Position numbers and translations under genes: made by a program. Below the pieces are notes generated by a model. The model did not search any database. It was not told where the DNA came from and worked only from the letters and a program-made list of their open reading frames with translations. From an uncultured Flavobacteriaceae bacterium (GTDB lineage Bacteria > Bacteroidota > Bacteroidia > Flavobacteriales > Flavobacteriaceae), in contig CANLCJ010000023.1 of assembly GCA_947489085.1 (NCBI GenBank), positions 1 to 64,000 on the forward strand: 64,000 nt of DNA. The letters are read 5' to 3'. Positions 61,785 to 64,000 of this stretch are shown here, piece by piece; position 1 is the first letter of the stretch, and each line of letters opens with the position of its first letter.

Positions 61785-61868
61785 ACAAATAGTCTCTTTT
61801 AAAGTCGTGATTTACTCATTTGTTGCGTGAGAATTCTAATTGAATGTATATGTTGTTGATTTAGCGAC

Positions 61869-61876
61869 TATATTTG
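61869..61876 (+). promoter_or_regulatory. Predicted promoter of the secreted protein-kinase unit
   Basis: TATATTTG (TAnnTTTG), 19 bases before the start codon at 61896. Confidence 0.6.
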
Positions 61877-61895: not shown

Positions 61896-62999
61896 ATGAC
61901 TAAAATAGGTTTAGCGTTGTGCGCTATTTTTTGCATTCTACAAATTGGTTTAGCACAAAAAGTGATTCATAATCCCGATTATATTTCAAAAAATTTTAGC
62001 GCTGTTGTAACAAAAATAGAGTTAAACGCTAATGCAACTGTTTTACATTTTTTAATTAAGCAATCAAGGGGAAAGTATGTTACTATACCTAAAGAGACTT
62101 ATATAGAAGATGCTTCGGGTAGTGGGCAAAAGATTTATGTTACAAAAGGCGTAGGTCTTAATGTTAGTGTTAGAACAATTATTCCAAATACAGACGAGTT
62201 AAGGTATAGCTTGCATTTCCCGCCCTTAAAAAAAGAGGTGCGAAGGATAAATTATGGAGAATCCAATCCAGGGGGTAATTGGTATATTTACAAGCTTAAT
62301 CTTACTAGAAACGGGAAAGACTTTTTAAAGCGCTATAATAATTCCAAAATAGAGAATAGCGTAAGGCACCATAGAGAATCCATTCTGCGTTATAAAAACA
62401 AAGGAAATTCTAACGCGTCGGTACTACTGGAAAATTCAAGAAATACATTATTTCCCAGAGATCTGCCAGAGCAGTTTTTTGGGAGTTGGTACGATAAGTT
62501 TGGAACATTACTGTTTATTGCTACGCGAGATTATGTTGTACTAAATTCTAGAGTGCAGTACTATCTAAATATTCAAGAAAAAGGAATCAATAAATATCAA
62601 ATAGAAACATCATTTAACTTTATAGAGATTTTAAGCCTTGAAACAAATACTATTACACTACGCACAAATCGTATCATGACTTTAAAAAAAGCATCTCATT
62701 TACTAAAAGTACCCGAATTAATTCAAGGGAATTGGTTTCTGTCTCAAAACCTAAAACGCATTAAAATAACAGAAGATTCCTTTATTTTAGCAGAAACAAA
62801 ACATGAGAAAACAGAAGATATAGAGACTTATAACATTGATTACGTTAGTACTTCAGAAAACGGTGCTTTAATTTTGTTTGTATTGTACCATAAAGGTACT
62901 TATAAAGTATATTATGCGAGGAAAGAAGGTAAAAGTTACGAGTTGTATTCTAGAGAACGAAAAGATATAGTTTTTAAAAAGGAAACCCTCACTAATTAA
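61896..62999 (+). CDS. Secreted protein related to the downstream kinase sensor
   Basis: A 367-residue protein with a signal peptide (about 1-20, ending GLAQK) and no other membrane segment. No family was recognised. Residues 20-185 are a beta-rich domain. Residues of about 189-365 begin DLPEQFFGSWYDKFG and include IATRDYVVLN and IQGNWFLSQNLKRIKI. This pattern recurs in the same order in the extracytoplasmic part of the histidine kinase encoded 17 bases downstream (DLPSQIVGAW, ISRDYIVIE, IIDDWYLKREKIVL). The two are thus probably one operon derived partly by domain duplication. A role as a ligand carrier, decoy or co-sensor is inference. Confidence 0.72.
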   Translation: MTKIGLALCAIFCILQIGLAQKVIHNPDYISKNFSAVVTKIELNANATVLHFLIKQSRGKYVTIPKETYIEDASGSGQKIYVTKGVGLNVSVRTIIPNTDELRYSLHFPPLKKEVRRINYGESNPGGNWYIYKLNLTRNGKDFLKRYNNSKIENSVRHHRESILRYKNKGNSNASVLLENSRNTLFPRDLPEQFFGSWYDKFGTLLFIATRDYVVLNSRVQYYLNIQEKGINKYQIETSFNFIEILSLETNTITLRTNRIMTLKKASHLLKVPELIQGNWFLSQNLKRIKITEDSFILAETKHEKTEDIETYNIDYVSTSENGALILFVLYHKGTYKVYYARKEGKSYELYSRERKDIVFKKETLTN

Positions 63000-63016
63000 A
63001 TAAGCTTTTAAAACGA

Positions 63017-64000
63017 ATGCGAATATTTCTTTTCCTTTTTGTTTTACTACCCTGCATGGGTTTCGCTCAAGCGAGGAGTAGGTTGCCCTCCGATTTGCCT
63101 AGCCAAATTGTTGGCGCTTGGGTTGATGATAAAGAGGATATTGTACTAATTATTTCAAGAGATTACATCGTTATAGAAAACCAACTTTACTCTTATAATG
63201 ATATTGTATCAGAACGAAAGAAAACCTATTTTACTTGTGTTTATAAATACGGTGTAAAGTACCTTAATACAGAAAAAATTAATGCCTCAAAATTATATGT
63301 AGATGCAGGCGATAAGATAAAAGTACTTACCAAATTGCCGTTTGTAAAGCAGAACAAATTGCCCGATTTTATAATAGACGATTGGTATTTAAAGAGAGAA
63401 AAGATAGTATTAAGAGAAAACGGAATGCTGTTTTCAGATACATTTTATCAAATAGATAATGTGTTTTCATCAAATGGAATTGATTACAAAATTATAGTTT
63501 ACCACAGCGGAGAGTACAGTTTTATATATAATTATTTAAATAAAAATGGCCATTATTTAAATACTAACTTTTCAGAAATTAAAGTTTTTAAAAAGGCTTC
63601 TTTTTTTAAAAAATACAAAATACATAGTATATTTTTATTAGTAACAATAATGCTGCTCGTAACTTATTATACTTTAAAAATGAAAATAGGGATAGCAAAA
63701 AAACGAGAAATGACTAAACGCGCATTAGTAGAAATGGAGTTGAAAAGTATACGTTCTCAAATGAATCCTCATTTTTTATTTAATGCCTTAAGTGCCATTC
63801 AAAACCTTATACATAAAAATGATACCGAAAAGGCAAATCACTATTTAACCCAATTTGCACAATTAATGCGGTTAACATTAGATAAGTCTGAAAAAGGTGT
63901 AGTGCCTTTGGAGGACGAGCTAAAATCTATACAGAAGTATCTCGAATTAGAAAAACTACGCTTTTTTTTCAATTACAAAATTGAAATAGATGCTAGTGTC
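63017..64000 (+). CDS. LytS-type membrane histidine kinase (cut by the window end)
   Basis: An open frame from ATG 63017 runs off the window after 328 codons. It shows a signal peptide or first helix (1-20), an extracytoplasmic sensor (about 26-200) resembling the upstream secreted protein, one transmembrane helix at about 203-222 and a short coiled linker. A His_kinase (LytS/YehU) domain follows, with the phospho-acceptor His252 in QMNPHFLFNALSAIQNL and then FAQLMRLTLDKSEKG. The ATP-binding domain lies beyond the edge. Such kinases usually pair with a LytTR regulator, expected just outside the window. Confidence 0.87.
   Translation, partial: MRIFLFLFVLLPCMGFAQARSRLPSDLPSQIVGAWVDDKEDIVLIISRDYIVIENQLYSYNDIVSERKKTYFTCVYKYGVKYLNTEKINASKLYVDAGDKIKVLTKLPFVKQNKLPDFIIDDWYLKREKIVLRENGMLFSDTFYQIDNVFSSNGIDYKIIVYHSGEYSFIYNYLNKNGHYLNTNFSEIKVFKKASFFKKYKIHSIFLLVTIMLLVTYYTLKMKIGIAKKREMTKRALVEMELKSIRSQMNPHFLFNALSAIQNLIHKNDTEKANHYLTQFAQLMRLTLDKSEKGVVPLEDELKSIQKYLELEKLRFFFNYKIEIDASV

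Follow-up and report, generated by a model that had tools for sequence, protein, structure and literature searches.

A possible autoregulated two-component cassette of Flavobacteriaceae in which an exported protein shares ancestry with the sensor of the neighbouring histidine kinase

The stretch of DNA that we analysed (the window) is 64,000 nucleotides long and comprises bases 1-64000 of the 67870 on contig C23. Around its end the genes der, SEC (61896-62999), KIN (63017-64360), RR (64384-65136) and a gene for a TlpA-like protein (approximately 65501-67687) follow one another, all on the plus strand. The open reading frames of SEC and KIN were located where the preliminary description had placed them. 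KIN overruns the window, which holds 63017-64000 of it, and its stop codon lies at position 64360 of the contig.

SEC, an exported protein, has 367 amino acids. Hydropathy reveals a single hydrophobic segment, at the N-terminus, and no second one. No Pfam or NCBIfam family matches SEC at E values up to 1, and within that search no thioredoxin or redoxin domain was found in it. Its N-terminal domain (approximately residues 21-140; 61956-62315) is common to the N-termini of TlpA-like proteins: SEC residues 8-138 align with the N-terminus of the TlpA-like protein encoded downstream at E 3.6e-18, and hhalign joins the two N-domain profiles at E 2.3e-43. Judged by these alignments, SEC is a mosaic whose N-terminal half is the N-terminal domain of the protein encoded just downstream, beyond the window. 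A thioredoxin-like domain was found in that downstream protein. The remainder of SEC consists of two lobes, lobe 1 (residues 186-270; 62451-62705) and lobe 2 (residues 271-367; 62706-62996), each predicted to form eight strands and to be lipocalin-like.

KIN is a sensor histidine kinase of 447 amino acids. Its His_kinase domain (PF06580; 63734-63964, with the motif QMNPHFLFN) was detected at E 2.2e-24, with 85.9 bits against a cut-off of 25.2; the match to HATPase_c (PF02518; E 0.0024, 18.7 bits) falls under the cut-off of 26.4. By hydropathy, hydrophobic segments lie at the N-terminus and near residues 202-224 (the transmembrane segment, 63620-63688), with a soluble domain of two lobes between them: sensor lobe 1 at approximately residues 24-108 (63086-63340) and sensor lobe 2 at approximately residues 115-200 (63359-63616). 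Kinases that are LytS in the strict sense carry a multi-transmembrane LytS region at the N-terminus. KIN has no such region, nor any Pfam match to one at E values up to 1, so the label "LytS-type" used in the preliminary description should be replaced by that of a PF06580 His_kinase protein with one transmembrane segment after the sensor. The same description had recommended looking among the following genes for a LytTR regulator, and the very next gene, RR, encodes one, with a receiver (PF00072, 81.1 bits) and a LytTR domain (PF04397, 62.7 bits).

It had also been proposed that the C-terminal half of SEC and the extracytoplasmic part of KIN share a domain, and this holds. SEC 187-340 and KIN 24-171 are 27% identical (blastp E 2e-10). 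Their local alignment score of 139 was reached in none of 2000 shuffles (mean 35.7, maximum 66), and the N-terminal half of SEC scores 30 against KIN. The profile-profile comparison that had been suggested as a check, with three SEC rows against three KIN rows, gives a probability of 98.9% and E 3.7e-17 over 144 columns. The shared unit has two lobes, either one some 85 residues long. Profiles of the single lobes from five genomes match like with like: lobe 1 with lobe 1 at 98% (E 1.7e-12) and lobe 2 with lobe 2 at 97% (E 1.6e-10), the cross-lobe pairs of SEC and KIN being worse (40%, E 5e-5, and 5%, E 0.003). Chance similarity is thus ruled out by the shuffles, the profile-profile comparison and the lobe-by-lobe matches alike. 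Since like lobes match better than cross pairs, the two-lobe unit is most likely older than the parting of SEC and KIN. The lobes may themselves be repeats, to go by the comparison of KIN lobe 1 with KIN lobe 2 (79%, E 2e-6, profiles from five genomes); lobes 1 and 2 of SEC match at only 0.2% in the same kind of comparison.

Divergence between the two proteins is considerable. They share 22-29% identity, and only six columns (G, W, Y, W, Y, K) are invariant over the 14 SEC and KIN rows. Cysteine is absent from the SEC lobes in six of seven genomes; KIN lobe 1 has one at roughly the same position in six of seven genomes (not in G229), with no second recurring cysteine. Thiol redox sensing by the lobes is therefore not supported by the sequences.

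What fold might the shared lobes have? The lipocalin or calycin fold is an eight-stranded barrel with a GxW motif near its N-terminus, and lobe 1 has a G and a W that do not vary across the 14 SEC and KIN rows. We built models of SEC and KIN from separate alignments of five and four rows. The SEC model has a mean pLDDT of 69.8, its C-terminal half (8 + 8 strands) being the better modelled; the N-domain is all-beta in the model and is possibly a beta-sandwich, as we read its weak structural matches. In a second structural comparison, which covered the best 1000 Foldseek matches, lipocalin-like, fatty-acid-binding (FABP) and avidin barrels were found for both SEC lobes, along with domains of esterases and peptidases. 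Among these 1000, SEC lobe 2 is best matched by Tp0751 (Z 10.3) and SEC lobe 1 alone by a retinoic-acid-binding protein, at a Z of 6.9 in a range (below approximately 8) that is common according to the tool's own note. For KIN the model as a whole is poor (54.5); it does include lobe 2, for which Tp0751 (Z 8.4) is again the best match. It is the agreement of many rows, not any single Z, that leads us to predict lipocalin-like lobes in SEC and KIN where they are well modelled. Foldseek itself gave no match at E up to 0.001 for the SEC model (best E 1.7e-3, a D-aminopeptidase, rmsd 14.2) and nothing better than E 0.64 for the KIN model. The Pfam lipocalin family did not match SEC or KIN, and a sequence search of solved structures gave no significant relative (best E 0.99). 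The preliminary description had considered that different predicted folds would speak against a shared domain: for lobe 2 the predictions agree, with Tp0751 as the best match of both proteins, while lobe 1 of KIN is too poorly modelled to be judged.

A survey of relatives, likewise suggested earlier, produced seven cassettes: that of the window's genome (G000), L041 in an uncultured Flavobacteriaceae, L042 in Allomuricauda (taken as the same as G229), L043 in Flaviramulus, and G248, G740 and G748. All seven keep SEC, KIN and RR side by side in one constant order, and the flanking genes vary; in G740 and G748 no TlpA or outer-membrane protein (OMP) gene adjoins the cassette. With the SEC-lobe profile at least 5 of 397 family genomes match, and all five have both SEC and KIN. 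With the KIN-sensor profile at least 2 of 395 order genomes match, both with both partners. The KIN sensor alone as a query finds strong matches in 2 of 248 family genomes, again both with both partners. Five further weak matches of that query (E 7e-4 to 8e-3) were considered as orphan kinases and rejected as unrelated proteins; reading of their sequences suggests a protease, an epimerase, a carboxypeptidase-regulatory-domain protein, a glycosyltransferase and a TPR protein. A 14-row profile matches 1 of 395 phylum genomes, the window's own, and of 61 candidate stretches from a scan of GTDB r220, 3 were confirmed. In these samples (397 and 248 family genomes, 395 order genomes) the sensor was never seen on a kinase without SEC; the searches with the SEC-lobe and KIN-sensor profiles covered at most eight first-look candidates in many genomes, so that a diverged orphan kinase could escape them.

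In a tree of the 14 two-lobe units, the seven from SEC are separated from the seven from KIN by a branch with 100/100 support; branching inside SEC is unresolved and KIN of G748 forms a long branch. Such a single split argues for one old duplication whose products have been kept together. With the homology and the constant adjacency, it also bears out the earlier suggestion that SEC is a secreted paralogue of a sensor. The lobes of SEC, seven intact copies with 33-67% pairwise identity, have diverged in step with the KIN sensor beyond what the kinase core accounts for (partial r 0.75, 3 of 5040 permutations); the correlation weakens when the close relative L041 is left out (partial r 0.64, 53 of 720 permutations). 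We take this correlated divergence as mild support for a functional partnership. A general habit of placing a paralogue beside a kinase was also considered; it is unsupported by the two further PF06580 kinases that the genome encodes, neither of which has a neighbour matching SEC or the KIN sensor, and the N-terminal parts of which have no match among their 6 and 5 neighbouring open reading frames (best E 0.62).

The connection with TlpA-like proteins extends to the lobes. In the relatives represented by L024, L025, L028, L029 and L030, which lack the cassette, a TlpA gene follows der directly or past one small gene. The TlpA proteins of these relatives have approximately 855 amino acids and, after the shared N-domain, contain one lobe resembling the sensor lobes. 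Profile comparison of KIN lobe 1 with nine such TlpA lobes gives 71% (E 4.7e-6). The remaining three pairings give only 6-16%, and for that reason we regard the kinship of the lobes with TlpA as likely, and as weaker than that between SEC and KIN. SEC has the N-domain of the TlpA-like thioredoxin proteins of Flavobacteriaceae, some of which have a sensor-like lobe as well, but unlike them it is without a thioredoxin domain. In G748 the N-domain is missing: its SEC has 227 amino acids, with two lobes and a start that resembles an export signal yet falls below the hydropathy threshold used. From this natural variant we conclude that the link with the kinase resides in the lobes.

Some observations on the TlpA-like proteins may be recorded here. 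Those adjoining the cassette at L005:5502-7688 (728 amino acids) and L041:12665-14827 (720 amino acids) are shorter than the homologues of about 855 and, on reading of the sequence, seem to have no lobe following the N-domain. Directly downstream of the latter gene, L041:14836-16650 encodes 604 amino acids with weak similarity to part of TlpA (E 3.3e-9) and no Pfam family at E up to 0.1.

Upstream of SEC there is a direct repeat with a period of 21 bp, CTCATT-N15-CTAATT (61815-61841, plus strand), which we describe as a putative operator of the LytTR type. A -7-like promoter box, TATATTTG (61869-61876, plus strand), lies 33 bp below the second repeat; we judged it against the promoter consensus of Bacteroidota. 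The generalized motif is CTMA-N17-CTMA followed by a TAnnTT box 33-34 bp past the start of the second CTMA. Its repeat precedes the start codon by 79-82 bp in all seven SEC genes, with the box spaced as above in each, though at G740 the box at the expected distance is weak. The composite motif occurs in 12 of 14 regions (shuffled mean 0.014, maximum 1, in 1000 shuffles), namely in all seven SEC regions and in five of the seven TlpA or OMP regions beside the cassette, being missing at TLPb and OMP of G248; an earlier count had given 10 of 12 regions (mean 0.31, maximum 3, in 1000 dinucleotide shuffles). It is found in none of seven regions upstream of TlpA, or of the small gene preceding it, in genomes that match by the N-domain only. 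These statistics are partly post hoc, as the repeat was first spotted by eye in the 12 regions and then tested in them. Independent confirmation comes only from the later-found cassettes G740 and G748, where both SEC promoters have the repeat at the same place.

Genome-wide the motif is not clearly enriched. A strict pattern gives 7 (G000), 2 (G229) and 6 (G248) matches, against 2, 5 and 15 for the reversed control; of these 15 matches 11 are within open reading frames, and three of the four intergenic ones are at the cassette. Two composite patterns give 31 matches against 18 and 10 against 9 in five genomes; taken together, the share at the cassette is 1 of 7 in G000 (whose SEC site, with its 33-bp gap, misses the composite pattern used), 3 of 4 in G229, 2 of 17 in G248, 0 of 3 in G740 and 1 of 10 in G748. 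Within the 64-kb window, both strands counted, plain CTMA-N17-CTMA has eight occurrences, of which one is at SEC. The weight of the motif therefore comes from its place and fixed spacing, not from genome-wide counts, and we do not claim a wider regulon. Scanning with a LytTR consensus, at gaps of 10-14 bp, found nothing; the half-sites share on average 5.8 of 8 letters with the reverse complement of that consensus, against 3.9 after shuffling. Autoregulated LytTR systems have been described with two 9-bp repeats 12 bp apart, that is with a 21-bp period, just above the promoter (PMC6193735). The repeat at SEC fits autoactivation of this sort, with RR as the presumed binding protein.

What could be the role of an exported relative of the sensor? 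What can be read from the DNA is the homology, the order of the genes, their joint occurrence and a repeat resembling an operator, present at SEC and at adjacent envelope genes; what we infer is contact between SEC and KIN, a ligand, the sign of the effect of SEC, and binding and activation by RR. Our preferred reading, which we hold only tentatively, is that SEC, KIN and RR form an autoregulated two-component cassette with a soluble periplasmic co-sensor that shares its ancestral module with the sensor of KIN. KIN would sense in the periplasm through two tandem lipocalin-like lobes and phosphorylate RR. RR would then activate SEC, KIN and RR by binding the direct repeats of 21 bp that lie closely above the promoter, so that SEC and KIN apparently induce their own expression; where they are present, RR would also activate neighbouring envelope genes (those of TlpA-like thioredoxin proteins or of a barrel protein in the outer membrane). 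The lobes of SEC would most likely dock on the KIN sensor, or bind the same cue beside it, and so set its activity, while the N-domain that SEC has in common with TlpA proteins may bring information on a TlpA substrate or partner. Exported SEC thus probably belongs to the KIN sensor as an inbuilt partner, or regulates it. At 22-29% identity, homotypic docking is not obvious. The preliminary description had named co-sensing, ligand competition and hetero-oligomer formation as options, and all of them are compatible with the data. The N-terminal half that SEC shares with TlpA, the resemblance of the lobes to that of TlpA and the shared 21-bp LytTR-type operator go beyond it.

A further proposal, possible though somewhat doubtful, is that the two-barrel unit of KIN works only together with its soluble relative from the same autoactivated operon, as a split sensor that tunes itself, the N-domain of SEC coupling KIN to the state of a TlpA-type envelope client. 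If this is true, we are dealing with a hetero-oligomeric sensor made of paralogous halves, one membrane-bound and one free.

SEC could instead act as an effector within the regulon, for example by carrying, scavenging or chaperoning some hydrophobic or envelope-derived ligand, and would not touch KIN; the kinase would have captured its ligand-binding lobes so as to sense that ligand too. A related lobe in TlpA-like envelope proteins suggests that the module may have been an effector domain first, and both the operator common to SEC and the neighbouring TlpA and OMP genes and the ligand-binding kind of fold predicted for the lobes would suit such a role. An independent effector, however, would not need to accompany every kinase, yet no kinase without SEC was seen in the samples, and the order SEC-KIN-RR is constant in seven of seven cassettes while the flanking genes vary. 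Constant adjacency and the absence of SEC-less kinases from the samples speak for a functional partner rather than a bystander, and we consider the effector explanation rather unlikely. Another suggestion is that SEC is a soluble decoy, which binds the ligand of KIN and, being self-induced, lowers free ligand as a negative feedback. The relationship of its lobes to the KIN sensor, its export without a second hydrophobic segment and its apparent induction by the system through the operator would all be explained. Ligand contacts like those of KIN would be expected in a decoy, but the 14 rows have no more than 6 invariant columns, and the N-domain is left without a role; we find this explanation improbable. 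That SEC is a duplication remnant, a by-product of kinase assembly with no signalling role, accords with its mosaic architecture and tandem position but is hardly credible given seven intact copies (33-67% lobe identity), each with a kinase alongside and an operator above.

In the co-sensor reading, SEC would be an unusual accessory protein, since the accessory proteins of sensor kinases, as far as we know, usually have no kinship with the sensor. A literature search by titles and the beginnings of abstracts, partial in coverage, turned up no paper on a kinase whose sensor has a soluble paralogue encoded together with it. In LuxP-LuxQ and HptA-HptS, as here, a separate exported protein modulates or informs a sensor kinase; the part of the source available to us does not describe those accessory proteins as related to the sensor domain (PMC8534201), whereas SEC shares ancestry with KIN. 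VtrA/VtrC and ToxR/ToxS are co-component systems, and they resemble SEC/KIN in being fast-evolving two-gene sensing cassettes with a membrane regulator and a neighbouring lipocalin-like periplasmic partner (PMC9214523). There the chain of the regulator itself contains a DNA-binding domain as output, while the output of SEC/KIN is a kinase and a separate RR; the portion of that paper available to us does not describe the partner as a copy of the regulator's sensor, and it reports a heterodimer for VtrA/VtrC (PMC9214523), where for SEC/KIN one is only presumed. No transmembrane DNA-binding output protein is present in SEC, KIN or RR, the output being the kinase and its separate regulator. Co-component systems of the VtrA/VtrC type are the nearest functional counterpart of SEC/KIN.

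LytTR regulatory systems (LRS) are not known to us to have a kinase or receiver. They are like the cassette in having a LytTR regulator and autoregulatory 9-bp direct repeats, mostly with a 12-bp gap, just above the promoter, and their regulator is paired with an inhibitory membrane protein (PMC6193735). That of the cassette is a receiver-LytTR protein and is paired with a PF06580 kinase. LRS-like operons of Bacteroides are described there with 11-bp repeats 11 bp apart (PMC6193735).

A conserved operon whose accessory protein is a paralogue of the sensor would be a clean system in which to study the origins of decoy, co-receptor and effector-derived-sensor arrangements. The putative operator offers a direct reporter, and the natural lobes-only SEC of G748 a minimal partner.

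Several minor observations concern the repeat and its surroundings. The first open reading frame after the operator, before the TlpA gene, is a small one at both L005:5275-5505 (76 amino acids) and L041:12438-12650 (70 amino acids), with a signal- or lipoprotein-like start. Elsewhere in the window's genome, on contig C19 (L063:5702-7193), a response regulator that reads as LytTR-like is followed about 40 bp later by a similar 21-bp repeat and then by a lipoprotein-like open reading frame of 196 amino acids. A second set of intergenic composite sites (L114, L115, L117, L119, L120 and L121) consists of two CTCAtt-like half-sites at 21 bp followed by a T-rich stretch; four of these six precede an open reading frame with an export-signal-like start, and they perhaps represent the regulon of another LytTR regulator.
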